Shown piece by piece: positions 6,908 through 21,761 of a stretch of DNA of 30,110 nt (position 1 is its first letter; each line of letters opens with the position of its first letter). The DNA lies in the IMG/VR virus record IMGVR_UViG_3300044959_000107, positions 1 through 30,110 of that record. One strand, given 5' to 3'. The notes under the pieces are model-generated. The model had not been told where the DNA came from. It saw nothing but the letters and a program-made list of their open reading frames with translations, and did not search any database. The position numbers and the translations under genes are program-made. Source of the DNA: a virus.

Positions 6908-7590
6908 GACCGTGCAGCAAGTTTGCGTTTGTAACGTTCGTTTTCTTTTTCGATTATAGAGTTCGCGACCGTTACGAGATGGTAGAACGTTCGAACGTTT
7001 AGGTCCATGACGTCGAAAAAGCTAAGTCTATAGAACTTAGCAATATAATAAAACACCTCCTCCCACCCCATCCGTTGCCCGTTTGTTGCAACGCGGGTTG
7101 TACGCATATATACGCCGACCCGCTCCATGCACTTGCCGAAGTCTACAAGTGCATGCGTGAAAAGTGCCAGCGGGAAGTGCTCAGCAAATAATTTTGCACG
7201 CTCCTCCATGGGATACTTTATATTCCCATAGCCGTCAACTTCGCCGTATTTCGACCCCGCCGGAATATAGAGCAGCGCTGCCACCCAATCGGGACGCCGT
7301 TCGGGAAGCGAAACTAAGTCGGCATACCATCCGATCGGTGCTTTATCAGCGCGCATGTATTCGTAGCGCTGACCGCGGATTTCAACAACCCGTTGAAATT
7401 TCGTAGACTTGAGTTGTTTGCCGTACGCTTCAACAAGCTCGCCCACGCGGTCCCGCGCCTGCACGATTGTTTCGGGCGTCACCTCTTCAGGCTTACCTTC
7501 AACGTCCCACAGCGCCCGCACTGCATCGCCAACAGTCTGCGCGTGCACGACGTGCCAATACTTGAGGGGGAGCGAATTAGTATACTGCAT
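6904..7590 (-). CDS. Uncharacterised late protein between terminase and tail genes (228 aa)
   Basis: The ORF starts at ATG 7590, 14 bases inside the terminase large subunit gene, and ends in an ATGA overlap with the gp10-like gene. It is a soluble, mixed alpha/beta protein with a helical C-terminus from about residue 175 (GWEEVFYYIAKFYRLSFFDV, then a charged Lys/Arg/Glu-rich tail). A C-terminal helix of the type found in tail assembly chaperones is suggestive, but I see no slippery sequence or frameshifted extension. A tail assembly chaperone or a minor head-tail factor are both possible. I do not recognise a family with certainty. Confidence 0.5.
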   Translation of the reverse strand: MQYTNSLPLKYWHVVHAQTVGDAVRALWDVEGKPEEVTPETIVQARDRVGELVEAYGKQLKSTKFQRVVEIRGQRYEYMRADKAPIGWYADLVSLPERRPDWVAALLYIPAGSKYGEVDGYGNIKYPMEERAKLFAEHFPLALFTHALVDFGKCMERVGVYMRTTRVATNGQRMGWEEVFYYIAKFYRLSFFDVMDLNVRTFYHLVTVANSIIEKENERYKRKLAARS

Positions 7591-8713
7591 AGGTCAACTG
7601 ATTATATTTCATGACCGCATAACGCATCGCGTCGAGTGCGTGATCGTTCACACGGACTGGGGTCTCGATGATCTGCCCGTTCGGGTCGACCGAAAATGCA
7701 TAGTTTTCGAGTTCTCGTATAAGGTTTTGCGAATCACGCGTCACGACTATTCTATATGTTTGCACAAGACGAATTGAATCAATTATGTTCGCTTGTTTTT
7801 TGACGGGCACTGCGTTCACCCCTGCGCGCTGAAGTTCCAGAATTGTTCGCGGCTCTGCTGAGTCACACGCGACAATTTCCCCACCCGCAGCACGGCGAAC
7901 GAGTTCAGCAAGTTCAGAAGTCGAAAGATACGAGCGATATAAGATTTCGCGGACGTACAAGACGCCATCAGCAATTTTCACCCCGCAAAGCGCTGACGGT
8001 GCCGTATAGCCAAAGTCCAAGCCGTACACCACGGGGTAGTCTAACATATCCCAGTTGTAATCGCCTATTTGCCAATTGCGGTAGATAATTCCTGCCCGTT
8101 CGCGACGTAGCCCCATTCCATATATTCGCCAGACTTCTGGGTCTTTGTCTTTATAGGATTCGATTTCAGCGATCTGCGAACGCGAAAGATAGGGGTTATC
8201 TTTGTACGTCGAATGGCAGGTTGCAACGCTTTCTTCTTTCAGAATGTAGTCGTAGAACCAGTGCGTATAGTAGCTGGGGTTGTAGTCACAGATTATCCTA
8301 TACTTCGTTCGCAACGCCAGCTGGTCGTATTCTTCCTTCTGAAATTCGAGCACCTCATTACAATATAGGATATCCTGCTGCAGACCATGTAATTTTGCTG
8401 CCTCTGAAGCTCCCACGAACCGAACCGTGTTTCGCCCGTACGTCCATTCCGTGCCGCGAACTGTTTGCCCAAGCCCCTGCAGAATCTTTTTAAAGTCTTG
8501 ATAGGTCGTTTGCATCACGTCAGTTTTGTACCGGCGGGCAATTGTTATATTGATCCCCGCCCCAGCGAACCGCATCATGAGCCAAACGATAAACTGCAAT
8601 GCTGAATACGTTTTTCCCGAACGCGTGCCACCCTCCAGAACCAGCAATCGCTTTTTGGAGAAGTTGTTCCTCAAGAATATAAGGTTAGGATTGATTTTCA
8701 GCGTCGTCTTCAT
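7577..8713 (-). CDS. terL: Terminase large subunit (378 aa)
   Basis: This is the packaging ATPase-nuclease that docks on the portal, pumps DNA into the prohead and cuts the concatemer. Walker A is GGTRSGKT at residues 28-35, and a Walker B-like strand, DILYCNEVLE, is near 114-123. The C-terminal RNase H-like nuclease shows three acidic clusters: GLDFGY (D233), VACDSAEP (D284) and NDHALDAMRY (D357/D361). The organisation resembles the PBSX/Terminase_3 family, and 378 residues is compact but complete. ATG 8713 is preferred over an upstream TTG at 8722. The gene overlaps the small subunit by 29 bases. Confidence 0.95.
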   Translation of the reverse strand: MKTTLKINPNLIFLRNNFSKKRLLVLEGGTRSGKTYSALQFIVWLMMRFAGAGINITIARRYKTDVMQTTYQDFKKILQGLGQTVRGTEWTYGRNTVRFVGASEAAKLHGLQQDILYCNEVLEFQKEEYDQLALRTKYRIICDYNPSYYTHWFYDYILKEESVATCHSTYKDNPYLSRSQIAEIESYKDKDPEVWRIYGMGLRRERAGIIYRNWQIGDYNWDMLDYPVVYGLDFGYTAPSALCGVKIADGVLYVREILYRSYLSTSELAELVRRAAGGEIVACDSAEPRTILELQRAGVNAVPVKKQANIIDSIRLVQTYRIVVTRDSQNLIRELENYAFSVDPNGQIIETPVRVNDHALDAMRYAVMKYNQLTYAVY

Positions 8714-9173
8714 GGCGCTCAAGTTTTTCGTTCGGCTTTTCGTTCAGGAATTCCAAAAATTCAGCATTTTCAACGGGTTGCAACGATTCATTCTGAATAC
8801 CGATGTACCTGCCGAGCTTGTTGAGCGTGTCCATTACTACACGCGGTTCTGGCTTTATAAAGTATTCAACGCCATTGACATAATACACCAATTCGCCTTT
8901 TATAAACTTCAACGCAGCTTCCCGCGCTTCAGCGACCAGCCGCTCGTTGAGCTCTGTGTCGAGCGCCTCCTTCTGTGACCGAAATTCGGGGTCGTTTTGC
9001 AGCCACTGCCAATAGGTCCGCCATTCAATTCCTATAGCCCTACAGGCACGTGCAGCAACCCCGCCATGCTCTCTATACGCCTTCAACCACGCCTCCTTTC
9101 GGGCGGCGACCGCGTCGGGTTTGTTGCTGTGTGACCTTTTGTACGAGCGTTTCTGTTTCCGACTTTCGCTCAT
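8685..9173 (-). CDS. terS: Terminase small subunit (162 aa)
   Basis: The N-terminal half carries a helix-turn-helix resembling the homeodomain-like phage terminase small subunits (GGVAARACRAIGIEWRTYWQW, about residues 37-57), suited to recognising the packaging site. The middle is helical (oligomerisation) and the C-terminus is acidic, the usual region for contact with the large subunit. It lies immediately upstream of terL and overlaps it by 29 bases. ATG 9173 is chosen; the upstream alternative at 9185 is a TTG. The first 34 codons overlap, in another frame, the end of the preceding 93-residue gene. Confidence 0.85.
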   Translation of the reverse strand: MSESRKQKRSYKRSHSNKPDAVAARKEAWLKAYREHGGVAARACRAIGIEWRTYWQWLQNDPEFRSQKEALDTELNERLVAEAREAALKFIKGELVYYVNGVEYFIKPEPRVVMDTLNKLGRYIGIQNESLQPVENAEFLEFLNEKPNEKLERHEDDAENQS

Positions 9174-9354
9174 CGCGCTGAACAATGTAATTGTGAAGGA
9201 TTATATAGGCTTCACGGCGGCAAGCCATGCACTTGCCCATCGATTGACCGGTGACCTGACGGAATAAGTCTGCAATCGTTTCGCTATGTTGTTCGAATTC
9301 AACAAACATACGGTCCAGGTCAGCAAGGGTCAGCGTTGTCAATTCTGCATTCAT
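9073..9354 (-). CDS. Small CxxC-containing late protein of unknown role (93 aa)
   Basis: ATG 9354 is preceded by a GAGGT ribosome site about six bases upstream, one of the few clear ones on the minus strand. The protein is helical with a central GKCMACRREAYIIL segment (one CxxC pair) and a very basic tail (QTRRGRRPKGG). Its 3-prime end overlaps the terminase small subunit start by 101 bases. The basic tail might bind nucleic acid. Its position directly before the terminase genes suggests a packaging-linked or transcription-coupled role, but I do not recognise the family. Confidence 0.6.
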   Translation of the reverse strand: MNAELTTLTLADLDRMFVEFEQHSETIADLFRQVTGQSMGKCMACRREAYIILHNYIVQRDERKSETETLVQKVTQQQTRRGRRPKGGVVEGV

Positions 9355-9384
9355 TTTTACCTCAAAAAATATGAATATTATGTA

Positions 9385-9801
9385 TTAATCGCATCCAATC
9401 ACCACGCGAAACGTCGCTGTAAAAGACAAACCGAACAGCAAGTCACCGCCTTGCAGCGGGCTAAAATCGAACGATGCATCTCGAACTGGGGCAACGCTTA
9501 GGTTCGGTGGAATCACGCCTGCAACGGTAGCCGTGTATTCGCCGAACGCCGATACCGCTTCGGCAACTGTTAGCGCCCATTCGATTGCCGCGTCGATGTC
9601 ATCTGATTTCGCCAGACAACTGAACCGATACGTTAGATCGGTATAACGTTGGTATGGGGGGAATTGAAACGACCCCCCGACAAACTCTATAATCACCCCA
9701 GGCACGGGCAGATCGCGCCCAGCCCGAACGGTGGGGTCGTCACCTAAGACAACTCCACCGACGTTCGTTCGAAGGTAATTGTAGAGCGCCTGGGTTATCA
9801 T
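9385..9801 (-). CDS. Tail terminator / minor capsid-like protein (138 aa)
   Basis: The sequence begins with MITQALYNYLRTN, then an extended beta-rich domain (VPGVIIEFVGGSFQFPPYQR ... LTYRFSCLAKSDD), a helix (AAIEWALTVAEAVSAF) and a final beta strand (ATFRVVIG). This fold order resembles tail terminator proteins of the DUF3168/gpU type, which cap the tail tube and join it to the head. It is the first gene behind the promoter at 9822-9852, ahead of the terminase genes and far from the other tail genes. ATG 9801 is used; TTG 9807 is the alternative. The family call is by resemblance. Confidence 0.6.
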   Translation of the reverse strand: MITQALYNYLRTNVGGVVLGDDPTVRAGRDLPVPGVIIEFVGGSFQFPPYQRYTDLTYRFSCLAKSDDIDAAIEWALTVAEAVSAFGEYTATVAGVIPPNLSVAPVRDASFDFSPLQGGDLLFGLSFTATFRVVIGCD

Positions 9802-9821
9802 TTGCAAATTTTATGTTTGTG

Positions 9822-9852
9822 CAAATATACGATTTTAGAGAAGCAATGTCAA
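9822..9852 (-). promoter_or_regulatory. Late promoter 1, Bacteroidota -33/-7 type
   Basis: On the minus strand CTTGACA (TTG at 9852-9850) is followed by exactly 20 bases and then TATATTTG (9829-9822), matching TTG-N20-TANNTTTG. Transcription should begin near 9815-9818, a few bases ahead of ATG 9801. The element overlaps the 3-prime end of the nuclease gene. Its boxes and spacing match the promoter at 28853-28883. Confidence 0.75.
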
Positions 9853-10200
9853 GAGTTTTTCTAAGTCTTTCAAATATAGAATAACGACCGGTTCTTCTCG
9901 GTCTGCACGGGCAATTACGACGGGGATTTCACCAGGTTCGGTGCCCGATTCCGCCTGCCCAAGCCATTCGTATAGGTTCCCAATTCTGGCACGGCGTTTG
10001 CATTCGATTGCCAGGGGTCCAAGGTGCATGTCGCATTGATTAGCCGACTGGTATTGCTTCAGGTTGCGCCAGACTGTGCCGTTGAATATATGTTCAGCCC
10101 GCCCACTAAGTCGTTCAGCAAGGCGTTGGCGCAGGGATTCGAGTTCATGGGCAATTTCGCGCTCGAACGCAGCACCTTTTTCACGCTCGTAACGTGCCAT
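9835..10200 (-). CDS. PD-(D/E)xK nuclease (121 aa)
   Basis: Residues 5-20 (EREKGAAFEREIAHEL) form the N-terminal helix seen in Hjc-like and related restriction-fold nucleases. The catalytic core is QCDMHLGPLAIECKRR, with D57 and E66-x-K68 fitting the PD-(D/E)xK signature. Such enzymes resolve branched DNA or trim recombination intermediates; here a role in processing concatemers before packaging is plausible. ATG 10200 has AAGGAG upstream and overlaps the preceding gene by 20 bases. A longer ORF from 10263 exists but lacks support. The gene ends the replication-side operon, and the late promoter lies across its 3-prime end. Confidence 0.75.
   Translation of the reverse strand: MARYEREKGAAFEREIAHELESLRQRLAERLSGRAEHIFNGTVWRNLKQYQSANQCDMHLGPLAIECKRRARIGNLYEWLGQAESGTEPGEIPVVIARADREEPVVILYLKDLEKLLTLLL
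9986..10002 (+). promoter_or_regulatory. Sigma54-like element, antisense in nuclease gene
   Basis: CTGGCACGGCGTTTGCA keeps all core positions of TGGCAC-N5-TTGC. It faces rightward, against the minus-strand genes. Confidence 0.5.
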
Positions 10201-10834
10201 TACGTTTCTCCTTGCAATGGAATTTACCTTCTCTATATTCAATTTTTCCAAAATTAGTTTCACCCGTTCGACCCGTTACATAAAGATTTCTCGCTTCGTC
10301 AAATTCTATTCTGACGTCTGTAACGTTTCGCAATTTGACTGATGGCTCTACAAACATTGTAGTCACATCAAGTTTTTCGGCTGTATAGGCAATCCATTTA
10401 ATTGTATACTCCGAGGCTTCGTAGTAGCCCCCCATGTTGAATAGATGTTTTGGGGTGCTGATAACAACAACTTCAAAGCCTTGATCTTTCGCCTGCACGA
10501 TTCGATCCCTCCATTCATTATCTGACAATTGTTCGTATTCAAAAAGTAAGAATATATTATCAGCCACTTCTTGACCAGTAATATCTAACATGCACCGCCA
10601 ATCTCTTATGTTATTCTCTGTGCAGTATAGCGTCGGCAACCCCCATTCCGTCACTAAAAACAGTGCAAACGACTCCCCCCATTGGCGATCTGTGATGAGT
10701 ATAGAATCACCTTTAAAAACAACATCTTTGCCAAAGATTGGCAATTTTTCGATTGGGGGCATTCGGGCAAGCTCTTCTATTGGTTTTGCGCGCTTGAACC
10801 AGTCAAGTGGATTTAATAATTTTCGTTTTTTCAT
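10181..10834 (-). CDS. RecA/DnaB-fold protein with degenerate P-loop (217 aa)
   Basis: The order of elements resembles the RecA-like domain of DnaB-type helicases. A strand leads into a P-loop position (GDSILITDRQWGESFALFL, residues 42-60), then GLPTLYCTENN, a second strand FEVVVISTPKHL (120-131), a helix and strand YTIKWIAYTAEKLDVTTMFV (143-162), and a terminal GRTGETNFGKIEYREGKF (188-205) like the arginine-finger hairpin. The Walker A Gly-Lys-Ser/Thr is replaced by Gly-Glu-Ser (53-55) and the Walker B Asp is missing, so ATP hydrolysis is unlikely. A structural or loader-type role is possible. It overlaps the HNH gene by 32 bases. The fold assignment is my own alignment by eye. Confidence 0.55.
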   Translation of the reverse strand: MKKRKLLNPLDWFKRAKPIEELARMPPIEKLPIFGKDVVFKGDSILITDRQWGESFALFLVTEWGLPTLYCTENNIRDWRCMLDITGQEVADNIFLLFEYEQLSDNEWRDRIVQAKDQGFEVVVISTPKHLFNMGGYYEASEYTIKWIAYTAEKLDVTTMFVEPSVKLRNVTDVRIEFDEARNLYVTGRTGETNFGKIEYREGKFHCKEKRNGTLRA

Positions 10835-11096
10835 TTGACGTTTGCCTTATTTTTCTACGGTGTTCTCGGTCGTAATTTAGATGACAGCGCTGGCAAAGTG
10901 CACGCAAGTTTTCGTCTGCACAATTCTGAGGATCGTGATCAAGATGGGCAACAGTCAACACAACTTTTGAACCTGTTAGTGGATGCGGCTTGTAATTTTC
11001 AGCACCGCAAAATTCGCATTTCCATCCGGCACGTTCACGGATGCGTAGGCTAATTTCTTTCCAGTTAGTCGGATATAGTTCTTTCCGGAATGGCAT
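10803..11096 (-). CDS. HNH endonuclease (97 aa)
   Basis: A compact HNH protein: first zinc pair C27-x2-C30, core LTVAHLDHDPQNCADENLRA containing the His-Asp-His and Asn positions, and second zinc pair C68-x2-C71 followed by His72. Phage HNH proteins of this size often nick DNA during packaging or act in replication. This one sits in the replication-side operon, overlapping both neighbours by 32 bases. A perfect sense-oriented sigma54-like element ends 33 bases before its ATG. A weak GGAG lies about 14 bases upstream of ATG 11096. Confidence 0.88.
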   Translation of the reverse strand: MPFRKELYPTNWKEISLRIRERAGWKCEFCGAENYKPHPLTGSKVVLTVAHLDHDPQNCADENLRALCQRCHLNYDREHRRKIRQTSNEKTKIIKST

Positions 11097-11403
11097 GTTG
11101 TTTCGACTCCAAGAAATTCAAAATCTTCTGCAAAAAGTGTGCCAACGGTTTTGGCGATGGAACGTCGGTGAATTCTGCATCAACGATTTGAGGCAATTTG
11201 TATTCAGGCAACGGTTCAATCGAGCGCAGCGGTGCGTCTTGTACCGGTTCCAGTTCCGGTTCCGTCCACTCTGCATCCGCTTGCACGGTAAGCGTCCCAT
11301 ACCAGGCTGCCCAGCGGGTAATTTCTTCTGATTGTTTGAGGGACGTTTGCCCCGCGGGTAGCAATCCAAGCTGTTTGGCACGGCGTTTGCTGTGTCCGAT
11401 CAT
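11065..11403 (-). CDS. Uncharacterised protein (112 aa)
   Basis: It starts with ATGA coupling to the upstream wHTH gene and overlaps the HNH gene by 32 bases. The N-terminus is basic (GHSKRRAKQLG), the middle is Pro/Glu-rich and probably disordered (EWTEPELEPVQDAP), and the C-terminus has a short amphipathic helix (LAHFLQKILNFLES). This layout fits an adaptor that tethers partners of the replication machinery, but no family is recognised. The gene contains two sigma54-like motifs, one on each strand. Confidence 0.55.
   Translation of the reverse strand: MIGHSKRRAKQLGLLPAGQTSLKQSEEITRWAAWYGTLTVQADAEWTEPELEPVQDAPLRSIEPLPEYKLPQIVDAEFTDVPSPKPLAHFLQKILNFLESKQHAIPERTISD
11129..11145 (-). promoter_or_regulatory. 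Sigma54-like element upstream of HNH gene
   Basis: On the minus strand TTGGCACACTTTTTGCA keeps TGGCAC-N5-TTGC. It is sense-oriented; an RNA starting about 12 bases past the GC would begin near 11118-11120, some 23 bases before ATG 11096. Confidence 0.55.
11375..11391 (+). promoter_or_regulatory. Sigma54-like element, antisense
   Basis: TTGGCACGGCGTTTGCT is a full match to the -24/-12 consensus. It faces rightward at the start of the 112-residue gene and would transcribe antisense RNA into the wHTH gene. Confidence 0.5.
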
Positions 11404-12590
11404 GGCGTCAGCTGTGCTTGTTTGGCACGTTCTTCAGCTTCACGGTACCGGCGGCGTAGTTCGTTGTAACGCCGGAAGGCTTCTTCTTGTTCCTGTTTCA
11501 CCCGTGGGTCGTTTGGGTTCCAGCGGCTTCCAGGCATCTCAATTTTGATTGCCTGCACGGGGTTGGGTTTCGGTTTGGGTTCCGTTTGCCCCTGCGTATA
11601 GTATTGCCGGCGGTCGTGGAGGTGATGCAGATATGCTTCGAGGCGGCTAAGACCGCGGGGGGCTTTCAAGTAGTCTGGCGTTGGGGGTGGTGGGGGTGGT
11701 TCGGACGGTTGTTCGGGTTGCGCTATCGGGATGGACGCGATAACCGCCTTCAGTGGCACTGGTCCACCGTGCAGTTCGACGGGGGAGACTTGCTTGTAGT
11801 AGCGGGGGACGGGTTTGCCCTTCTTGCGGTACGGTGACCAGTACATTTTTTTGATGCGCCAGGCGATACGCTTCACCGTTCGGTAGCCTTCGAGGCAGGC
11901 TTTGACGACGCGGTCAACGATTTTGAGCGCCATTTCGACACTTGCACCGATTTTGAGCGCCAGCCACGAGACGACTTTGCCGGCAGCAACCCACACGTTC
12001 CGGTCATCAATGCCCGCAAGGTGCAGCTTCCACCTGGTCCACTTCATCAGATCGCGCCAGTAGGGGTACCCCTTCTTGATTTTGTACCCCTTTCGCTTGT
12101 CTAAGACCAGATCAAGTTCCCATATATGTTTGCATTCGCGTTTTGGTTTCCTCTCCCATACCTTATGAGCCTTCTTTTCTTCCCCTTCTTGGGGGGTAAA
12201 AATAGAGCGCGCCGTCTGCGGCGTTTCCCCTTTAGACTGTCTATTCTTAATAGAGCTGCATATGCGTCCAGGTTTGTTCGCGATATTTTTTCGGGGTCGC
12301 TGGTTCGGAAAATTAAAAAGCGGGTTGCCCTTGTGGTCGGTTAGTGTCCAGAGGGTTCCCCGTCCTGTAGTTTTCGACCTACAAACGATTCGGGCTTTTT
12401 CGAGGCGCCGAAGGATGCGGTTAATGTAGCTTGTGTCTACCCGTAAGCGTTTTGCCAACGCGGGCACGTTGACGTACGTATTGCGCTCGACTTCGTAGGT
12501 GATTTCGTACGCAATCCACACCGCGTGGCGCCAGCGGGTGTCGAAATATTCGCGGATGTTTTTGATTCGTTGGAGTGCGTATGGGGTCAT
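11400..12590 (-). CDS. Winged-helix replication-initiator-like protein (396 aa)
   Basis: Residues 20-85 form a winged helix-turn-helix (YVNVPALAKRLRVDTSYINR, then ILRRLEKARIV and a wing GRGTLWTL). A basic linker follows, then a helical domain around 170-270 (WRDLMKWTRWKLHLAGID ... VVKACLEGYRTVKRIAWRI). The C-terminal third holds a poly-Pro stretch and a charged helix rich in Arg/Glu. A DNA-binding head with a basic helical body fits phage replication initiators or helicase loaders, and no other initiator is visible. The gene is ATGA-coupled on both sides. Direct DNA binding is a fair inference; the replication role rests on context. Confidence 0.6.
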   Translation of the reverse strand: MTPYALQRIKNIREYFDTRWRHAVWIAYEITYEVERNTYVNVPALAKRLRVDTSYINRILRRLEKARIVCRSKTTGRGTLWTLTDHKGNPLFNFPNQRPRKNIANKPGRICSSIKNRQSKGETPQTARSIFTPQEGEEKKAHKVWERKPKRECKHIWELDLVLDKRKGYKIKKGYPYWRDLMKWTRWKLHLAGIDDRNVWVAAGKVVSWLALKIGASVEMALKIVDRVVKACLEGYRTVKRIAWRIKKMYWSPYRKKGKPVPRYYKQVSPVELHGGPVPLKAVIASIPIAQPEQPSEPPPPPPTPDYLKAPRGLSRLEAYLHHLHDRRQYYTQGQTEPKPKPNPVQAIKIEMPGSRWNPNDPRVKQEQEEAFRRYNELRRRYREAEERAKQAQLTP

Positions 12591-12907
12591 TTGATTTGCA
12601 CCTGTGAATGCCTTAATACTAACTTCTTAACGTCGTCGCCGTACACTTCGCACAAGACCGCCAGCACAGCCATGAAGTTCCACCGCGAAACATACGCTTC
12701 ATCGGCGATTGCGTCTTGTGCAGCTCGAATTGCTTCTGTTCCTAACAGCTCGTCAAGATCGGTGAAAAGCAGCCACAACGTCCACGCGGTGAACCGTTGC
12801 GGCGATATCCACTTACCCCCGATGTAGAAGCCGCCACGTGCTTTGACGTCTGGCACGATTTTTGAGGCGACTTCGTGCATGTAGTCAAGTGTTATTTCGG
12901 TTGGCAT
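12587..12907 (-). CDS. Uncharacterised protein (106 aa)
   Basis: The preferred start is ATG 12907 (MPTEITLDYMHEVASKIV), because the longer reading from 12961 adds a segment unlike the rest and lies in the gap after the methyltransferase gene. The protein is helical and acidic with several Trp residues (FTAWTLWLLFTDLDELLG, SRWNFMAVLAVLCEVYG). It ends in an ATGA overlap with the wHTH protein gene, suggesting co-production. I see no catalytic motif and do not recognise the family. A partner protein of the replication protein is one guess. Confidence 0.55.
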   Translation of the reverse strand: MPTEITLDYMHEVASKIVPDVKARGGFYIGGKWISPQRFTAWTLWLLFTDLDELLGTEAIRAAQDAIADEAYVSRWNFMAVLAVLCEVYGDDVKKLVLRHSQVQIK

Positions 12908-12997
12908 AGGGTAGTTTTGTATGGTTATACTTCCAACCGCAATATACAACACCGCAAGCAATTCTGCAACAACATTTTTGCGCGGTGGAAAAATTGT

Positions 12998-13014
12998 TTG
13001 GCACGTTATTTGCT
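12998..13014 (+). promoter_or_regulatory. Sigma54-like element in the gap after the methyltransferase gene
   Basis: TTGGCACGTTATTTGCT is a full match. It lies in the 105-bp gap 12908-13012 and reaches the methyltransferase stop codon, facing rightward, so it would give RNA antisense to the methyltransferase gene. Confidence 0.5.
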
Positions 13015-13906
13015 ATTCGAATAGGCTTAGCGTAGGTGGTTCGTAGTTCAGCCAGATGCATTCGGTGCGTTTGGCATGGTTTTTGTATGCGTTCTCTTCG
13101 GTCCATCGCGTGCCTCGGACGCGCACAATGCTATGGCATACTGTATTCTTAATGTATCGTCGCCAACCTTGTTGTTCAAGTTGATTGTATATTTCATTAG
13201 GGTAGCCAGATAACATGACTTTGCCCTTCACGTTCAAAAGCGTTTCAACAAGATTGATGTGGTAATTGAAGTCAGTATCGTGATTGTAGAGTATTTTGTC
13301 TTTCCGCGATTCGGGGACGTAGGGCGGATCAAGGTAAAAAAACGTCTCTTCGGAATCCCAATTACGAATGCATTCGATAGCGTCAACGTTTTCAACGTAG
13401 ACATTCGCAAGTCGACGGTGAAAATTGTGCAGTTTACGTTTTTTGTTATCCCAATAGGATGGATCTTTATTTACAAGTGATATTCCCCAATTATCACTAT
13501 CGAGTTTACCAGCGTAGTTTTGGTTTTGCCGAACAAAAAACGCCCATGCACGTTCAACATCAGACGACCAGTTCCCCGACTTCAAAATCTCGACGGCGCG
13601 TTCGAAGTCTGCGCGCGAATAGAGCGTGTATGTTATTCTGTGATTGAATTCTGCATATGTTTCGGGATTTTGCAGCACGCGGTAGAGATTAGTAATGTGA
13701 CCATCGAGGTCGTTTAGGACTTCAATCTTGTATCGCTTCGGTAGATTGAAGAACAACGCCGCTGACCCTGCGAATGGCTCTACATAACAGCTAACGCCGC
13801 GGTCGGGTAGATATTGGAGTAGCCAGTCTACAATCAGGTGTTTGCCGCCCATGTAACAAAATAACGCACCTTTGATCGGCTGGACGTATTTCGATTCGTG
13901 CTGCAT
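13013..13906 (-). CDS. D12-class (Dam-like) DNA adenine N6-methyltransferase (297 aa)
   Basis: The motifs are in the alpha-class order of Dam/D12 enzymes: FCYMGGKHLIVDWLL (SAM site, YMGGK at 18-22), VEPFAGSAALFF (42-53), NDLDGHI (65-71) and the catalytic FFYLDPPY (DPPY at 193-196). Length is normal for a full-length enzyme. It should transfer a methyl group from S-adenosylmethionine to adenine N6 in phage DNA, protecting it from host restriction or marking it. No partner restriction enzyme is visible. It is the first gene of the leftward operon, and the only upstream promoter-like signals on its strand are the sigma54-like elements at 14041-14057 and 14194-14210. Confidence 0.9.
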   Translation of the reverse strand: MQHESKYVQPIKGALFCYMGGKHLIVDWLLQYLPDRGVSCYVEPFAGSAALFFNLPKRYKIEVLNDLDGHITNLYRVLQNPETYAEFNHRITYTLYSRADFERAVEILKSGNWSSDVERAWAFFVRQNQNYAGKLDSDNWGISLVNKDPSYWDNKKRKLHNFHRRLANVYVENVDAIECIRNWDSEETFFYLDPPYVPESRKDKILYNHDTDFNYHINLVETLLNVKGKVMLSGYPNEIYNQLEQQGWRRYIKNTVCHSIVRVRGTRWTEENAYKNHAKRTECIWLNYEPPTLSLFE

Positions 13907-13980
13907 AGCTTACGGGAATAATATGACTTTGCTAATTTAGCTATTGCGCGGCATCGCTGCAAACATTTTCTTCGCGCTGT

Positions 13981-13997
13981 TTGGCACATCATTTGAG
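13981..13997 (+). promoter_or_regulatory. Sigma54-like element, -12 variant
   Basis: TTGGCACATCATTTGAG has an intact -24 box and TTGA in place of TTGC. It is intergenic and faces the early operon. Confidence 0.4.
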
Positions 13998-14007
13998 GTA
14001 GACTCAA

Positions 14008-14024
14008 CTGGCACGCCCTTTGCA
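14008..14024 (+). promoter_or_regulatory. Sigma54-like element facing the early operon
   Basis: CTGGCACGCCCTTTGCA is a full match to the -24/-12 consensus, including the C before TGGC and the G after it. The predicted start is near 14035, upstream of P1 and P2, so it could drive the same early operon. Confidence 0.55.
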
Positions 14025-14040
14025 TGCGGTTGTTCGTGCT

Positions 14041-14057
14041 ATCAAACACCGTGCCAA
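14041..14057 (-). promoter_or_regulatory. Sigma54-like element in module copy 1, -12 variant
   Basis: On the minus strand TTGGCACGGTGTTTGAT has an intact -24 box, with TTGA at -12. It faces the methyltransferase gene and is the counterpart of the full match in module copy 2. Confidence 0.4.
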
Positions 14058-14104
14058 ACTATGCCAAAATTATTCAAAAAAATTTTCAAAAAAATAAAAA
14101 GTGC

Positions 14105-14135
14105 TTGCGAAATACATTTTCGTTTCGTATTTTTG
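14105..14135 (+). promoter_or_regulatory. Early promoter P1, -33/-7 type
   Basis: TTG at 14105-14107, 20 bases, then TATTTTTG at 14128-14135, matching the Bacteroidota TTG...TANNTTTG promoter. It points toward the zinc-ribbon gene at 14365. Confidence 0.75.
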
Positions 14136-14193
14136 CAGTGAAACAACGGTTCATTGAAAACGGCGCGAAAATACGATGGTTCGGGGCGGCTAC

Positions 14194-14210
14194 AGCAAAC
14201 AGCGTGCCAA
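14194..14210 (-). promoter_or_regulatory. Sigma54-like element facing the methyltransferase operon
   Basis: On the minus strand TTGGCACGCTGTTTGCT is a full match to the consensus. The predicted start is near 14183-14185. No -33/-7 promoter was found on this strand in the region, so this is the best candidate promoter for the 13906-9835 operon. Confidence 0.6.
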
Positions 14211-14261
14211 ACCGAACCAAAAATTCGCAAAAAAATTTTTTTCGAATCACAAAAATTTTCC

Positions 14262-14292
14262 TTGCAAATTCAAAATAAGTTTCGTATTTTTG
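14262..14292 (+). promoter_or_regulatory. Early promoter P2, -33/-7 type
   Basis: TTG at 14262-14264, 20 bases, then TATTTTTG at 14285-14292. The flank TTTCGTATTTTTGC is identical to that of P1. The expected RNA start is near 14297-14300, leaving a leader of about 65 bases before ATG 14365. Confidence 0.78.
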
Positions 14293-14364
14293 CGTCGTAG
14301 AGATTGAAAACAAATAACGGCGGTCCACCGCCAAGTATGTACAACCAATCCTATAGGTGATGCC

Positions 14365-14853
14365 ATGTCACACAAGATCGTGTCCATCCGCTGCAACAAG
14401 TGCGGCGAATACGAGACGACCAAGCTGTATGCCTCGACCAACCGCGAAGCCAATCGCAAGGCAGAGTGGATGAGCTCTGCAGGCGTCTACACCTGCAGCA
14501 CGTGCAAGGCAGCAAGCCAGCCTAAGCCATGTGTGTCGATCCGGATCGACCGCTGGGATGGCGCTACGTATCGCGTCCTTGCGGCGGGCGCAACGTATAC
14601 TATTAAGGACAGCCTCCGCAAGCTCGACATGCGATGGGGTCAGCATGCACCGACCCCGACGAGTGATGCCGATGGCACGCAGGGCTGGGCACGAGTGTGC
14701 AAGTCGCGTCAAGATGCAGAGGAGCTGGCTGATCGCATCCGCGCGATAGCGGCAGCCTGCAAGCTCGATGCATACGTACGCATCAATGACGACATGCCAG
14801 CCGATGGCGATGAGATCACAATCCGTCCAGATGCACTGGACGCTGTACTGTAA
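14365..14853 (+). CDS. Zinc-ribbon early protein (162 aa)
   Basis: The first gene behind the early promoters. An N-terminal treble-clef or ribbon-like zinc site is formed by CNKC (10-13) and CSTC (44-47), followed by an alpha/beta domain and a C-terminal helix-strand unit (RQDAEELADRIRAIAAACK, then AYVRINDD). A small zinc-bearing early product may act on host transcription or bind nucleic acid; this is inference. Its leader carries TATAGGTG before the ATG, the same string as ahead of the next gene. Codons favour G/C endings more than in the late genes. I do not recognise the family. Confidence 0.6.
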   Translation: MSHKIVSIRCNKCGEYETTKLYASTNREANRKAEWMSSAGVYTCSTCKAASQPKPCVSIRIDRWDGATYRVLAAGATYTIKDSLRKLDMRWGQHAPTPTSDADGTQGWARVCKSRQDAEELADRIRAIAAACKLDAYVRINDDMPADGDEITIRPDALDAVL

Positions 14854-14880
14854 TGTATCACTATCTGTATAGGTGCCCCC

Positions 14881-15345
14881 ATGTTACTACTTACAATCCA
14901 CCGCCCCGATCCCGACCGCTGGTCGGACATGTTAGACCGCGCCGTCGCGGTCGATAGCACAGGAGACGAAGTATACCTGCGCTGCTACATTGACGGCGAA
15001 TATGCTTACTGCCTTGACGACCCGACTTGGGTTGCCGCACTGGTCACAATAGGTGTGCCGGTCGAAATTGAGGATTATGATCTTGACGCGGTCATAGACA
15101 CCGACTGGCAAGACGTCGAGCGCGACGGCAAGGCAACCGTACGCGATATGGTCGAGTATGCGTACGGTCATCTGTTAGGTTGGACTGACGGTTATCGCCC
15201 ATTCCGTGGCGAGTCGTACTACATTAGCGACACGCCTGATGATGGTTGTGTGTACTGCATCAATTACGACGAGGTGCGCGACATCGCGCGACAGCGGGCG
15301 CTGGCTACAGACGAAGAAGAGCAAGAACAACAAGAACAGAAATGA
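14881..15345 (+). CDS. Very acidic early protein, possible DNA mimic (154 aa)
   Basis: Counting by eye gives about 37 Asp/Glu against 13 Lys/Arg, spread along the whole chain, with a tail EEEQEQQEQK. There is no signal peptide or membrane segment. Small, strongly acidic early phage proteins are often DNA mimics that block restriction or other DNA-binding host enzymes, so an anti-defence role is a reasonable guess, but I recognise no named family (ArdA, Ocr and similar were considered). The leader TATAGGTGCCCCC precedes ATG 14881. The stop overlaps the next start as ATGA. Confidence 0.55.
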   Translation: MLLLTIHRPDPDRWSDMLDRAVAVDSTGDEVYLRCYIDGEYAYCLDDPTWVAALVTIGVPVEIEDYDLDAVIDTDWQDVERDGKATVRDMVEYAYGHLLGWTDGYRPFRGESYYISDTPDDGCVYCINYDEVRDIARQRALATDEEEQEQQEQK

Positions 15346-15638
15346 AATACCGCGTCGAACTACGCCGCGACTTGAATCGCCCCGACCTGGTAGCCTACGT
15401 CTCTGATGACGGATGGCTCTGGATCGGAGATGAAGAGTTGCAGATCGCCTACCACCCAAGCGATAAGTCGCCCTTCGACGGGCGCTACGAGCGGTATATC
15501 TACGAGGACATCGTTCCGCCGCCGCCCGATACGCCTGCGATGGACGCCTATGCGAAATGGATATCTCGCAACGTCATCGCCGCGCTAAAAGTATGCCAAA
15601 TGATGCTTGAGCAAAAGAAAAACCCAGGGCACAATTAG
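15342..15638 (+). CDS. Uncharacterised early protein (98 aa)
   Basis: The start is fixed by ATGA coupling to the acidic gene; a longer reading from 15246 would lie entirely inside that gene. The protein begins MKYRVELRRDLNRPDLVAYV, has a beta-rich first half with several Trp and Tyr residues, a VPPPPDTP linker and a C-terminal helix with KVCQMMLEQKK. The coupling suggests co-production with the acidic protein. No family is recognised. Confidence 0.55.
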   Translation: MKYRVELRRDLNRPDLVAYVSDDGWLWIGDEELQIAYHPSDKSPFDGRYERYIYEDIVPPPPDTPAMDAYAKWISRNVIAALKVCQMMLEQKKNPGHN

Positions 15639-15673
15639 CCCGAATGTATGTCAAACCATAATCCTATATACCT

Positions 15674-16456
15674 ATGCATCCCCAAAAACAACAACTGGAC
15701 TTGCTGCAGGTTATTGCCGACCAGTCAAAGACTGGCAACGTCGAAGCCCTGCAAAAATTGATCGATCTGAAAATCCAGGTCGACCGGTACCTTGCCGAAC
15801 AAGCGTACCGCGAAGCAAAAGCCGCAGCGCTTGCGGAAATTGGGGTCATTCCACCGAACCGAACGGCGCGAATCAAAAGCAAGCGAACGGGGGAAACTTA
15901 TCAGTACACTTATGCAAGCCTCGATCACCTTATCGCAGTTGCCGGTCCGGTACTAACGCGACACGGCTTCAGCTGGTCCTGGGAGCACCGCGCAACGGAA
16001 CAGGGGGTCGAGACGACGTGCCGCCTTGTCCACCGCGACGGGCATTCCGAGACGGCAACGTTCACCTGCCCCTTGGAGTCGGGCGATTACATGTCCGCCC
16101 GCGCACAGCATGTATCGGCGCGAACCACCGGTTGCCGAATCACCTTCATGGCGGTCACCGGCATCGCCGTCGCGGGCGAAGATACCGACCGAACCGTTGT
16201 AGGGTCGGAATACCGATACGAAGAAGACCCCTTCAGTGACTTACCGAGACAGCAACAATCACAACAGAATGAGCCGCCCGCAACTGAAGCGCAAATAAAG
16301 CTACTGCAAACACTATGCCAACAAAAAGGCGTTGAATATATCGAGCCGCCGTCGAAGGCGATAGCGTCGAGCATGATTACGAGATTGAAGGCGCTGCCTA
16401 ACGTAGAACCGAAGCAAACGAAAAATGTCGAACCAAAACAAGAGGAGCTGCTATGA
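15674..16456 (+). CDS. erf: ERF-family single-strand annealing protein (260 aa)
   Basis: The core matches the ERF recombinases (P22 Erf type): TYQYTYASLDHLIAVAGPVL around residues 74-93, a beta-rich middle (ETTCRLVHRDGHSETATFTC) and the RxTGCRITFMAVTGIAVAGE segment near 150-169. The C-terminal third is Gln/Glu/Pro-rich with a small helical unit (EAQIKLLQTLCQQKG), as is common in this family. It should anneal single strands exposed by the exonuclease encoded next, in phage recombination and concatemer formation. The stop overlaps the exonuclease start as ATGA, and AGGAG in its last codons serves as the ribosome site for that gene. Confidence 0.85.
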   Translation: MHPQKQQLDLLQVIADQSKTGNVEALQKLIDLKIQVDRYLAEQAYREAKAAALAEIGVIPPNRTARIKSKRTGETYQYTYASLDHLIAVAGPVLTRHGFSWSWEHRATEQGVETTCRLVHRDGHSETATFTCPLESGDYMSARAQHVSARTTGCRITFMAVTGIAVAGEDTDRTVVGSEYRYEEDPFSDLPRQQQSQQNEPPATEAQIKLLQTLCQQKGVEYIEPPSKAIASSMITRLKALPNVEPKQTKNVEPKQEELL

Positions 16457-17400
16457 ACTTCGCTGATGAATTGCGAAAGTTAGATGAGCAGATCGCTATA
16501 GCAGACGCGCTTATTGATATGCTCGACGACCCGAACCCGAAGTTCATTGGAGCCAGCCAGGTCGCTGCCGTTGCGGGGTTATCCCCGTGGCAAAGCCCGC
16601 GCGACGTCTGGGCGGCAATCGTGAAGGGACAAGAAGCCGAAACGACGGAAGCGATGGAAATTGGCACGCTACTTGAAGACGATATTCTGGAAATATACCA
16701 GCGCCGCCACGGGGTCGAGGTCGGCAGCCGCCAGCTGCAGAAGACACGCGACATCTACCGCGCTACAATAGACGGTTACGACGCCAAGCACCGAATGATC
16801 ATCGAAGCAAAGACAAGCGCTCGAAGCGTTACCGAGGTGCCCCCGTACTACCTTGCGCAAATAGCGTGCCAAATGTACGTGCACGAGCAGACCGCCGCCC
16901 GCGTGGTGTACCTTGCGGCAATGCGGTATACGGAATTCGACGTGTATTGGGACGACGTGCAAGAGCTTTGGAAAGCAGTCGATTCAGCGTGCCATGAATT
17001 CTGGGTGAACTACGTAGCGACAGGCAAAGAGCCGCCGCGGTCGCATAAGAATATCGAACCGGAAGCAATCAAGACCGGAACAACCGACGTGCTGCTATCG
17101 GAACACGTCTATCGGGTTGAAGACCTGAGGAAATTAGAAGCACAAATCGAAGCTATACAAGAGACGCTAACCGCGCTCGAGCAAATGCGCGATGCGCTGG
17201 TCGATGAACTCGTCTCCATGTACGGCTACCCCGAACGCCTAACGCTACCGGATGGCACGCTAATTGCAGCTGCACGCGAACGTAAATTACCAGGTCGCGT
17301 CGATGCAAAGCGACTCAAAGCTGAAAAACCTGAAATCTACGAAGCCTATTATGTACCAGGCGAAACGAAAACAGAGTACAAACTATATCTGGAGGACTGA
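16453..17400 (+). CDS. YqaJ-like viral recombinase (lambda-type 5-3 exonuclease), 315 aa
   Basis: The N-terminal half has the YqaJ/lambda exonuclease motifs: IGASQVAAVAGLSPWQSPRD (about 31-50), EIGTLLEDDIL (68-78, conserved Glu), and the PD-(D/E)xK core ATIDGYDAKHRMIIEAKT (103-120, with Asp and E-x-K). The remainder is helical with a coiled-coil stretch (LEAQIEAIQETLTALEQM). It digests one strand of a duplex end and loads the ERF protein on the other, a two-component recombination pair. It is ATGA-coupled to erf. Three sigma54-like motifs lie inside the gene. Confidence 0.88.
   Translation: MNFADELRKLDEQIAIADALIDMLDDPNPKFIGASQVAAVAGLSPWQSPRDVWAAIVKGQEAETTEAMEIGTLLEDDILEIYQRRHGVEVGSRQLQKTRDIYRATIDGYDAKHRMIIEAKTSARSVTEVPPYYLAQIACQMYVHEQTAARVVYLAAMRYTEFDVYWDDVQELWKAVDSACHEFWVNYVATGKEPPRSHKNIEPEAIKTGTTDVLLSEHVYRVEDLRKLEAQIEAIQETLTALEQMRDALVDELVSMYGYPERLTLPDGTLIAAARERKLPGRVDAKRLKAEKPEIYEAYYVPGETKTEYKLYLED
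16856..16872 (-). promoter_or_regulatory. Sigma54-like element, antisense in exonuclease gene
   Basis: On the minus strand TTGGCACGCTATTTGCG keeps TGGCAC-N5-TTGC. It faces leftward, opposite to the early operon. Confidence 0.45.
17252..17268 (+). promoter_or_regulatory. Sigma54-like element, sense, near the end of the exonuclease gene
   Basis: ATGGCACGCTAATTGCA keeps TGGCAC-N5-TTGC. An RNA starting near 17280 would carry the small downstream genes from 17403 onward. Confidence 0.5.
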
Positions 17401-17402
17401 CC

Positions 17403-17621
17403 ATGCGACTTACTCTGCAAAAACCGTACCAACTTGACAACGCTATCGGCAACGGCGTCGAACGCCTGCGGGTGATGCTCTACCGGCGGCTCAAAATCGA
17501 ACTAATCGAACGCGGCATCGACCCCGAAGAAGCAAAAGATATAGCAAGCGACGTCGCCTTAGGTGAAGCAATCGAAGTCTACCGAATGATGAAAGGTATA
17601 CAATGGAGGCTACGAAAATGA
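17403..17621 (+). CDS. Small uncharacterised protein (72 aa)
   Basis: A GGAGG ribosome site lies about eight bases before ATG 17403. The protein is helical and charged (GVERLRVMLYRRLKIELIER, then GIDPEEAKDIASDVALGEA). Its stop overlaps the next gene's ATG 17618 as ATGA, so the two are translationally coupled. No family recognised. Confidence 0.6.
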   Translation: MRLTLQKPYQLDNAIGNGVERLRVMLYRRLKIELIERGIDPEEAKDIASDVALGEAIEVYRMMKGIQWRLRK

Positions 17622-18151
17622 AAGAACTGCTGATGGTACTCAGTAGCATCTCGCCGCTTTTCATTCTTTGGGCGATTCGCGGGAATAATCTTGTCCCGGA
17701 TCGTGTGTTTGTCGGCTTCTGCGTGCTGATGGTAGCCCTGCCCAATGCCTTCCTGTGGCTTAGGATTCGGACAGCGAAGAAGCAGAACGACAAGCGCGAA
17801 CTCACAGTTGGAAGTGCCGATGATCACCGCGACTACATTCTCGTCTACCTCTTTGCGATGCTCTTGCCGTTCTACTCCGCTAACGTGAGCACCTGGCGCG
17901 ATCTTGGCGCGACGGTCGCCGCGCTGGCATTCATCGTGTTCCTGTTCTGGCACCTGAACCTGCACTCTATGAACCTGATTTTCGCTGCGCGTGGCATGCG
18001 GGTCTTCACGATCTATCCGCCTGCGGACGGCAACGTGCTCAGCGGTAAAACGCCTTGCGCTGTGATCACACGTCGAGTCAGCCTTGCTCCGGGTGATAAG
18101 ATCATTACCTACAGATTGAGTAACACGGTGTATATGGAGGCAGAAAAATGA
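17618..18151 (+). CDS. Four-helix inner-membrane protein with small soluble tail (177 aa)
   Basis: ATG 17618 is chosen over ATG 17603 because it is coupled as ATGA and has GGAGG at 17605-17609. About four hydrophobic segments are visible: LLMVLSSISPLFILWAI, VFVGFCVLMVALPNAFLWL, ILVYLFAMLLPFY and VAALAFIVFLFWHL. A soluble C-terminal part follows with TPCAVITRRVSLAPGDKIIT and YRLSNTVYME. This architecture recalls small membrane proteins such as KwaA of the Kiwa defence system, but I could not confirm homology. Codons are richer in G/C and nearly free of ATA compared with neighbours, suggesting recent acquisition. A role in superinfection exclusion or membrane sensing is a guess. Confidence 0.6.
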   Translation: MKELLMVLSSISPLFILWAIRGNNLVPDRVFVGFCVLMVALPNAFLWLRIRTAKKQNDKRELTVGSADDHRDYILVYLFAMLLPFYSANVSTWRDLGATVAALAFIVFLFWHLNLHSMNLIFAARGMRVFTIYPPADGNVLSGKTPCAVITRRVSLAPGDKIITYRLSNTVYMEAEK

Positions 18152-18348
18152 ACCGCTACGACGGAACCGCCGACGTACTGCCCGAATGGCTAAAGCAGCA
18201 ACGCGAACACGCTGAAGCTATCAGCGAACTCAAAGAGGTATTCGAATTTGAACGCCGCAAAAAGCGTGCCGAACGAACGCGACTGAACATAACAATTACC
18301 CTTATTGTACTGCTACTTGTATGTCTAACCATATATTCGAGGTGCTAA
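18148..18348 (+). CDS. Small C-tail-anchored membrane protein (66 aa)
   Basis: ATGA-coupled to the four-helix membrane protein, with GGAGG upstream. The first 45 residues are charged and helical (LKQQREHAEAISELKEVFEF, then ERRKKRAER), followed by one membrane segment LNITITLIVLLLVCLTIYS at the extreme C-terminus. The coupling suggests it partners the 177-residue membrane protein. It is unlikely to be the lysis spanin, because a spanin candidate lies in the late lysis cassette. Confidence 0.55.
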   Translation: MNRYDGTADVLPEWLKQQREHAEAISELKEVFEFERRKKRAERTRLNITITLIVLLLVCLTIYSRC

Positions 18349-18349
18349 A

Positions 18350-18595
18350 ATGGATGCTAATATCCAAAATTGTCTCTATTTTCTGAAACTCGAACCGATG
18401 CTCAAAGCGATTGGTATCCCAAAGAAAGAGCGGTCGAACATAATCACCCGACGCCGCTATGGGACCCCAACGCCCAGAGACCTCGCTCTTATAGCGAATG
18501 CATTGAAGGCGGCTGGTATCGACGAGCTGCTGCGCTATGCAGACGGCGTGACGTTGCCGCCGGTGACGGTCACAACACGGGAGGTGGAGCCATGA
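18350..18595 (+). CDS. Small helix-turn-helix-like protein (81 aa)
   Basis: ATG 18350 follows the previous stop by one base. The segment LEPMLKAIGIPKKERSNI plus TRRRYGTPTPRDLALIANAL has the spacing of a Cro/CI-like helix-turn-helix, with a basic ITRRR turn. The rest is short. If it binds DNA it would be the only evident small regulator of this genome, and the many repeated sigma54-like motifs would be obvious candidate sites to test. The stop overlaps the next ATG as ATGA. The family is uncertain. Confidence 0.45.
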   Translation: MDANIQNCLYFLKLEPMLKAIGIPKKERSNIITRRRYGTPTPRDLALIANALKAAGIDELLRYADGVTLPPVTVTTREVEP

Positions 18596-19152
18596 AGAGA
18601 TACACACATTTTGACTTTGACAAGTTCCCTCGCGATATTTGTGACATCGGTTGGCGCAATTGCCCATCAGGCGATTATACGCTGATGCATAAGTTTGAAG
18701 GAAACTGCGATTTTGCCAACAATTGCGTATTTGACTCTGATACAGTGTTTACACACACCTGCATCTTTGGTGATAATTGCTCGTTTGGCGATAATTGCAT
18801 GTTCGAGCATACTACAGAGTTTGGTAAAAATTGCAGCTTTGGTAAAGGCTGCAAATTTGGGGCTGGGACATACTTCGGGGATGGGTGCGTGATTGGGAGT
18901 GATGCCAAAGTAGGTGGAGAAAGCTATATCGGCAATCATTGCGCTTTTGGGGATAATTGCATAATAGGGAAGTGGAGCACTATTGGTGACTACTGTACAT
19001 TTGGCGAATCGACGGTGCTATATTGCGGCTGCCAATATGGTAGAAGTTGCCGTTTTGGGACTAATAGCATCCTCCATATTGCATATAGCAATTCATCAGC
19101 CGTATGGATGCGCGGACCTATCTTTTTGGGCAACGAGGAGGCAGAGCCATGA
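18592..19152 (+). CDS. Cys-rich hexapeptide-repeat beta-helix protein A (186 aa)
   Basis: ATG 18592 is preceded by GGAGGTGGAGCC. After a short head (CPSGDYTLMHKF) the chain is a strict six-residue repeat of the form C-x-F-G-x-x, for example CSFGDN, CKFGAG, TYFGDG, CAFGDN, CTFGES, running about 20 units. Hexapeptide periodicity with a small hydrophobic residue at every third place predicts a left-handed parallel beta-helix. Cysteine takes one fixed place in most coils, about 16 in all, so a ladder of thiols would line one edge. No acyltransferase catalytic His or domain is evident. The next gene is a paralogue. The DNA is more A/T-rich than upstream genes. Confidence 0.7.
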   Translation: MKRYTHFDFDKFPRDICDIGWRNCPSGDYTLMHKFEGNCDFANNCVFDSDTVFTHTCIFGDNCSFGDNCMFEHTTEFGKNCSFGKGCKFGAGTYFGDGCVIGSDAKVGGESYIGNHCAFGDNCIIGKWSTIGDYCTFGESTVLYCGCQYGRSCRFGTNSILHIAYSNSSAVWMRGPIFLGNEEAEP

Positions 19153-19583
19153 AGCTCAAAAAGTACACAGAAGACGATCTGAAAAAGTTCCGCCGGCTCA
19201 AAGACGGGAGCCTATATTGCCCAATGGGGGATTATACCGCAATCAAAAAATTTGGCGATGATATCCATTTTGCGCATTGGTGTGAATTCGCTGAAGGAAC
19301 ATATTTCGGCAACGGCTGCAAATTCGGCAGGGCATGTTATTTCGGTAATTACTGTATATTCGGTCTTGACTGCACGTTTGGGGATGGCTGCCGTCTGGGT
19401 AATGGCTGTATAATTATGAAGCGTTGCCGGTTCGGGAAATATTGTAAACTGGGTAGCGGGTCTATAATCGCCGATATGTGTGAATTTGGCGAAGGCACAA
19501 TCTTATACTGGTGCGTTACAATCGGAAAAAACTGTATATTCGGGCGCGAATCCCGAATCTATATTGATAAAGGACCAACATAA
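19149..19583 (+). CDS. Cys-rich hexapeptide-repeat beta-helix protein B (144 aa)
   Basis: A shorter paralogue of the upstream gene, ATGA-coupled to it and preceded by GAGGAGG. It shares the head pattern K-YT-x2-D...CPMGDYTAIKKF and the C-x-F-G-x-x coils (CKFGRA, CYFGNY, CIFGLD, CTFGDG, CRFGKY, CIFGRE), about 14 units with 13 cysteines. Two neighbouring paralogues of different length suggest duplication and perhaps a hetero-oligomer. Possible roles include metal binding or binding a host protein; none can be read from the sequence. It is the last gene before the terminator near 19640. Confidence 0.7.
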   Translation: MKLKKYTEDDLKKFRRLKDGSLYCPMGDYTAIKKFGDDIHFAHWCEFAEGTYFGNGCKFGRACYFGNYCIFGLDCTFGDGCRLGNGCIIMKRCRFGKYCKLGSGSIIADMCEFGEGTILYWCVTIGKNCIFGRESRIYIDKGPT

Positions 19584-19623
19584 GGGGAGGCACACGAGGG
19601 GATAGCGCTCCTCTACCCACTGC

Positions 19624-19654
19624 AACGGCGCCTACAACGGGCGCCGTTTTGTTT
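19624..19654. terminator. Strong hairpin terminator between converging operons
   Basis: A perfect 9-bp stem, AACGGCGCC (19624-19632) with GGCGCCGTT (19640-19648), and a 7-base loop, then TTGTTT on the plus strand. An outer imperfect stem (CCCACTGC at 19616 with GCGGTGGG at 19656) surrounds it. It ends the early operon and, from the other side, lies just past the last late gene, so it probably works in both directions. Confidence 0.85.
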
Positions 19655-19668
19655 GCGCGGTGGGCGCA

Positions 19669-21489: not shown

Positions 21490-21761
21490 ATCTCGATCCA
21501 GATATATCCTTCGATGTTTTCGACGTTCGTGCCGTTTGTGTATTTCAGATCGGTATAATACCGCCCAGCCGGTAGCGTACGGGGAAACTCTATATACACT
21601 TCGCCCTTCGCTGGGTCGGCTACAACAACCGTGCCAACCGCCGCTATACGTCCGTCGAGTCTGCGCAACGTCGAGGCGAACGAATAGCCCGTTACGTCAC
21701 GCTGCAAAACTACGTGCACGCGGACGTCTTCGCCGGTCTTGAACGATTGCCACCTAACCAC
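21468..21761 (-). CDS. Small beta-sandwich tail-associated protein (about 97 aa)
   Basis: The second half, GEVYIEFPRTLPAGRYYTDL followed by KYTNG, resembles the small Ig-like domains found in phage baseplate or fibre-adjacent proteins, where Leu-Pro-x-Gly-x-Tyr-Tyr precedes the last strands. There is no ATG. GTG 21761 is preferred because it gives an eight-base overlap with the spanin stop, like the tape measure start; TTG 21785 is the alternative. Placed between the lysis genes and the fibre genes, it is probably a virion part. Confidence 0.5.
   Translation of the reverse strand: MVRWQSFKTGEDVRVHVVLQRDVTGYSFASTLRRLDGRIAAVGTVVVADPAKGEVYIEFPRTLPAGRYYTDLKYTNGTNVENIEGYIWIEICPAATL

Follow-up and report, generated by a model that had tools for sequence, protein, structure and literature searches.

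Sigma54-type -24/-12 motifs conserved across a phage genome as candidate sites for host RNA polymerase-sigma54

Introduction

What reads a short motif with the form of a bacterial sigma54 promoter when it recurs about once every 2 kb along a phage genome? The question is raised by IMGVR_UViG_3300044959_000107, a virus record whose 30,110 bases, the whole stretch analysed here and called the window, constitute a complete phage genome with 165-base end repeats. The motif, TGGCAC-N5-TTGC, has eight exact copies, and allowing one mismatch raises the total to 17. Phage gene expression is usually described in terms of sigma70-type factors, phage polymerases and phage regulators, and a literature search turned up no account of phages transcribing their genes through host sigma54 (RpoN), a factor that needs an activator to open promoters.

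An initial annotation had left three options for the motif: RpoN-dependent transcription, a decoy array for host RpoN, or the operators of a phage regulator. The sequence evidence now favours genuine sigma54 elements, given the match to an experimentally derived matrix, the exact five-base spacer, conservation beyond codon constraint and recurrence in lineages without a common protein; it does not separate promoters from silent or decoy binding.

The motif set and its controls

All fifteen sites originally proposed (eight exact, seven with one mismatch) were found at their coordinates, and two further one-mismatch sites were added on the minus strand, at 17417-17431 (TGGTAC) and 18257-18271 (CGGCAC). 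The accompanying claim that the sites outnumber chance was borne out. Dinucleotide shuffles yield 2.4 sites at up to one mismatch (maximum 8) against 17 in the window, while shuffles preserving both protein and codon usage yield 0.46 exact sites (maximum 3, n = 300) against 8, and 3.5 sites at up to one mismatch (maximum 10, n = 60) against 17. Spacers of 3, 4, 6 or 7 bases and the reversed pattern gave no exact match anywhere in the window; the five-base spacing characteristic of sigma54 promoters is therefore specific. Moreover, 80 terminase-related viral contigs that had not been selected by motif (852 kb) contain one match to the weight matrix described below, against 13 in the 30-kb window, and 21 named phages (about 2 Mb, including Bacteroides and Cellulophaga phages, T4, lambda, phiKZ and Mx8) contain one exact core.

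Could the motif nevertheless be a by-product of composition or codon usage, or simply chance? Part of the antisense excess among the sites is indeed codon composition, as intragenic matches lean antisense two to one even with a wrong spacer (142 versus 67). The idea that antisense orientation is meaningful in itself is weakened by this control, and the lean alone is not to be read as function. As an account of the motif, however, an artefact is refuted by the shuffles, the shifted spacers, the terminase relatives and the conservation described next, and is considered extremely unlikely.

Conservation in a sister phage

Relatives were sought in viral contigs and bacterial genomes with RecE, terminase and methyltransferase queries. 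No relatives were found in the bacterial genomes with these queries, and the viral contigs provided a single close sister (G001, IMGVR_UViG_3300045922_000603; 30,338 bases), 87% identical in the aligned parts. The comparison with related phages, proposed at the outset, revealed no loss of exact cores, as every base of all eight is unchanged in the sister. Across the 17 sites, five core substitutions are seen where codon-position rates would give 23.7. Third-codon positions inside cores are identical at 38 of 40 (95%; 70% genome-wide), and real cores are 97% identical to the sister, compared with 86% for permuted cores from the same genome. Flanks 40 bases from the sites are conserved to a nearly genome-like degree, and two sites that are exact in the sister depart from the full core here. 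Since the cores are conserved above codon-position expectation, the motif itself is, to judge from this comparison and the little phylogenetic depth that one sister affords, kept by selection in this phage lineage, inside genes too.

Likeness to mapped sigma54 promoters

The 42 sites that are both intergenic and in sense in the Escherichia coli sigma54 map obtained by chromatin immunoprecipitation sequencing (ChIP-seq; PMC4591121, Table 1) served to derive a weight matrix. By this matrix, which is that of E. coli and not the host's, 13 window sites equal or exceed the median score of the 42 ChIP-mapped promoters, and no site in Markov shuffles (n = 6) does so; the scoring against shuffles that had been suggested thus came out in favour of the motif. 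The top score, 21.0 at 11129-11145 on the minus strand, approaches the maximum of the E. coli set (21.4). The GG and GC doublets stand at canonical spacing in agreement with the experimental matrix, and the remark that most sites also carry the outer consensus bases was borne out. The C at -12 is strongly conserved in E. coli sigma54 sites, and TTGA variants, common in this phage, are also among the E. coli sites bound in vivo (PMC4591121). Sigma54 quite probably binds these predicted sites.

Recurrence in unrelated viral contigs

A scan of viral contigs with the pattern TTTGGCACG-N3-TTTGC returned at least 119 stretches, many with further sites. The matched stretches hold at least 116 further exact cores in 1.1 Mb, against five when the scan was repeated with one more base in the spacer; as the contigs were selected by one match, these numbers establish the existence and recurrence of arrays but not their frequency. 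Among the matches listed, 69% of array sites are intergenic, compared with 8% of control sites. Mismatches in the arrays of other lineages spare the GG and, within the GC doublet, the G, and mainly turn C-21 into T, as in E. coli sigma54 sites, a pattern counted for the sigma54 reading.

No protein common to all was found among the dense lineages compared (35-61% G+C; BLASTP, E 1e-4), nor any phage-encoded binder common to the motif-carrying phages, many of the 30 dense records being fragments; when two dense contigs were compared with named phages by megablast, only tRNA and short matches came back. A host factor common to unrelated phages best explains recurrence without a common protein, and the sequence names RNA polymerase-sigma54, which would be the likeliest reader of the sites.

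The layout of the arrays varies. An unrelated contig, G028 (IMGVR_UViG_3300032030_000285), carries about two dozen intergenic sites on one strand, mostly 34-76 nucleotides (nt) before starts, and the placement in most other arrays is less plainly promoter-like. The G028 sites, in positions 1-20000 of its stretch and in a further stretch, stand before most genes and are followed by ATATA; the contig also encodes a putative protein that, from sequence reading, resembles an RpoD-type sigma factor. In G003 (IMGVR_UViG_3300002520_000024), 12 sites, 11 of them on one strand, crowd into 0.8 kb (6583-7355 of its stretch), often 50-60 nt apart, between divergent operons and with no confident gene within. 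In G002 (IMGVR_UViG_3300049489_000321), 21 sites on both strands fill 0.77 kb (13204-13973 of its stretch), many about 28 nt apart, between convergent genes and with no evident gene; the gene calls for both clusters come from a simple script. G011 (IMGVR_UViG_3300027770_003399) has 12 sites about 1 kb apart at 3681-14161 of its stretch, oriented against the called genes; a longer conserved repeat, ACAAAGTTTGGCAC..TATTTGCAC..CTTGCTCTAAGTCGTTGGTATC, surrounds each of them. Finally, open reading frames cover little of G023 and G022 under code 11; G023 also has many tRNAs, and a changed genetic code is possible.

Clusters such as those in G003 and G002, without an evident gene, raise the possibility that the sites act mainly as a sponge, titrating host RNA polymerase-sigma54 and damping the sigma54-driven host response as their copy number climbs with phage replication, with productive transcription secondary or absent. 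Sites on both strands of the window, mostly inside genes of a phage with no activator, would suit such a role, and sigma54 binding at most E. coli sites appears transcriptionally inactive (PMC4591121). However, a sponge would not need fixed positions, yet positions are conserved in the sister; the window sites are dispersed, four of them falling in a divergent control region and the top-scoring one suitably positioned to serve a gene; and the layout of G028 is plainly promoter-like. A sponge is therefore regarded as a rather unlikely principal function.

The divergent control region

Two sets of early genes diverge here: the leftward set, from 13906, encodes the methyltransferase, the winged-helix protein, HNH and RusA, and the rightward set, from 14365, the Erf-like and RecE-like proteins. 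An apparent 84-residue gene between them, at 14024-14278, was rejected because its reading frame is not conserved in the sister, where frame-breaking indels are seen, and 13907-14364 is thus taken to be non-coding. This amends the original placement of the sites, as the cores starting at 13982, 14009, 14042 and 14195 are all intergenic.

Two of these four sigma54-type sites face each operon. Toward the right operon, on the plus strand, point a TTGA variant at 13981-13997, changed in the sister, and an exact core at 14008-14024 (score 19.6), conserved there. Toward the left operon, on the minus strand, point a TTGA variant at 14041-14057 and an exact core at 14194-14210 (score 18.3), which share a duplicated module.

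Vegetative promoters of the Bacteroidota follow the consensus TTG-N19-21-TAnnTTTG, and the window holds eight of the TTG-N20-TAnnTTTG type against 0.9 expected. Three lie in the control region, namely PR1 (14105-14135, plus strand; TTG-N20-TAnnTTTG) and PR2 (14262-14292, plus strand) for the right operon, and PL (13932-13962, minus strand) for the left, the last with one mismatch here and perfect in the sister. A tandem duplication at 14043-14300 of a module comprising a sigma54-type site, an A-tract and a vegetative promoter yields PR1 and PR2. As Bacteroidota-type promoters flank the sites, they indicate the host, which is probably a Bacteroidota bacterium.

PL, PR1, PR2 and the promoter before 12961 each have a motif in inverted orientation 16-49 bp upstream, which is also how an operator is expected to look. 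The sites could then belong to a phage-encoded regulator or replication initiator, as stoperators or iterons do, and share the sigma54 core by coincidence. Conservation of the C at -12 is loose in this lineage, and the winged-helix protein encoded at 11400-12590, whose MarR-like score falls just below the Pfam cut-off, would be a candidate binder. Against this, the sigma54 consensus is matched in all ten core bases, in the exact spacer and in the flanking preferences, the motif turns up again in lineages that have no protein in common, and the winged-helix gene itself has no site. The sequence evidence hence argues against a phage-encoded operator set, which is deemed unlikely. An AlphaFold model of the winged-helix protein had low confidence and does not enter the evidence, and the 81-residue helix-turn-helix-like protein suggested initially as a binder has no family match and no supported role.

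Sites outside the control region

On the left arm, the highest-scoring site, the exact core TTGGCACACTTTTTGCA (11129-11145, minus strand; conserved in the sister), has its -12 base 34 nt upstream of the ATG (11096) of the HNH endonuclease gene. Its neighbours include the exact core CTGGCACGGCGTTTGCA (9986-10002, plus strand; score 18.0), antisense within the RusA-like gene and identical in the sister; an exact, conserved, antisense core at 11375-11391 (plus strand); and a conserved antisense TTGA site at 12850-12866 (plus strand; score 15.5). The exact site at 12998-13014 (plus strand), its core conserved, falls in the narrow space separating the methyltransferase gene from the gene that follows; a vegetative-type promoter on the minus strand, at about 12940-12970, has this site upstream of it in inverted orientation. 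An extra matrix match, TTGGCATGGTTTTTGTA (13071-13087, plus strand; score 16.7), has two core mismatches, lies antisense in the methyltransferase gene and is fully conserved in the sister.

On the right arm, a TGGCAT site at 16305-16321 (minus strand), antisense in the Erf-like gene, reads as an exact TGGCAC in the sister. The RecE-like gene contains a sense TTGA site at 16661-16677 (plus strand) and a conserved, exact antisense core at 16856-16872 (minus strand), and an exact sense core at 17252-17268 (plus strand; score 19.6) stands 136 nt before the next start codon (17403). With their outermost bases, the two added sites span 17416-17432 (minus strand; antisense; score 17.4) and 18256-18272 (minus strand; weaker, antisense, core conserved in the sister). 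Further along, a TTGT site at 21621-21637 (minus strand; score 16.3) is sense in the late region, and a TTGA site at 24825-24841 (minus strand; score 16.9) is sense inside the portal gene.

Site 11129 thus stands in sense just upstream of a gene; the four control-region sites and 17252 plausibly do so too, and eight to nine antisense sites do not fit this layout. The early arms hold eight antisense sites, whereas the few late sites in either phage are all sense; the difference (Fisher p 0.026, small numbers and post hoc grouping) is suggestive only.

At 18750-19583, an acyltransferase-like gene of hexapeptide-repeat (left-handed beta-helix) type contains tandem-like DNA repeats. Its Pfam-matched reading frame covers 19104-19583, and similar repeats upstream, from 18755, hint at a longer or broken gene.

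A proposed reading and its significance

Overall, the sites may be genuine -24/-12 elements, kept by selection and bound by the host RpoN RNA polymerase, some of them serving as activator-dependent promoters, a model given a probability of roughly 0.55 as a whole. Activator-dependent promoters would be the most likely use of the control-region sites and of 11129. After entry, the vegetative sigma factor would fire PL, PR1 and PR2; once a host sigma54 activator turns on, the four control-region sites and the sense sites, above all 11129, would add sigma54-dependent transcription. The antisense sites might produce antisense RNA over early genes or hold silent closed complexes. As the phage has neither sigma54 nor an enhancer-binding ATPase, the host must supply both, and as sigma54 requires an activator, its timing would be set by the host's. 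In Bacteroidota, sigma54 drives chaperone genes, grpE and groES being sigma54-dependent in B. thetaiotaomicron (PMC12316311), which makes a link between the phage sites and host stress plausible.

Several observations weigh against this model. No activator gene was found in the phage, and the enhancer-binding ATPase family PF00158 has no matches in the 30 dense records; most window sites are intragenic, with antisense exceeding sense, unlike the canonical layout of G028; the C at -12 is missing in six of the nine one-mismatch window sites; and the presence of RpoN in the host is presumed. RpoN itself (PF04552) gave one sub-threshold match in the dense records, in G006, and none at family cut-offs, and the phage genome has no convincing GAFTGA or RpoN-box reading frame.

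If the model is true, infection depends on, or disarms, an activator-gated host sigma factor controlling Bacteroidota stress genes, and the motif becomes a simple handle for finding such phages and the host activators they use. Site arrays in several unrelated viruses suggest that some phages tap into, or sequester, a switch of the host stress response. It is a more tentative and doubtful thought that such arrays evolved independently in several unrelated lineages, as a sponge for RNA polymerase-sigma54 or a stress-triggered switch, so that replication silences or hijacks the host stress programme without a phage-encoded regulator.

Comparison with known systems

Bacteroidota vegetative promoters are present in this phage before both early operons, but as separate elements that do not explain the sigma54-type motif. 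The stoperators of mycobacteriophage L5, short asymmetric sites spread over the phage genome and bound by the phage repressor, offer a lead only; they resemble the present set in being short and asymmetric, whereas the motif here has the sequence of a host sigma-factor site and recurs without a common protein. Bacterial sigma54 promoters share the TGGCAC-N5-TTGC core with Y before and W after it, scores equal to those of ChIP-mapped E. coli promoters by the E. coli matrix, and, for some sites, a position 20-80 nt before a gene; what sets the motif here apart is that its carrier, a phage, encodes no activator, that its density is about one per 2 kb and that many of the sites are antisense and intragenic. 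The intragenic sigma54 sites of E. coli (PMC4591121) are also numerous inside genes, occur in both orientations and have cores conserved beyond protein constraint, yet they amount to about 135-250 per chromosome with a sense bias, while the phage carries 15-17 in 30 kb, antisense more often than sense.

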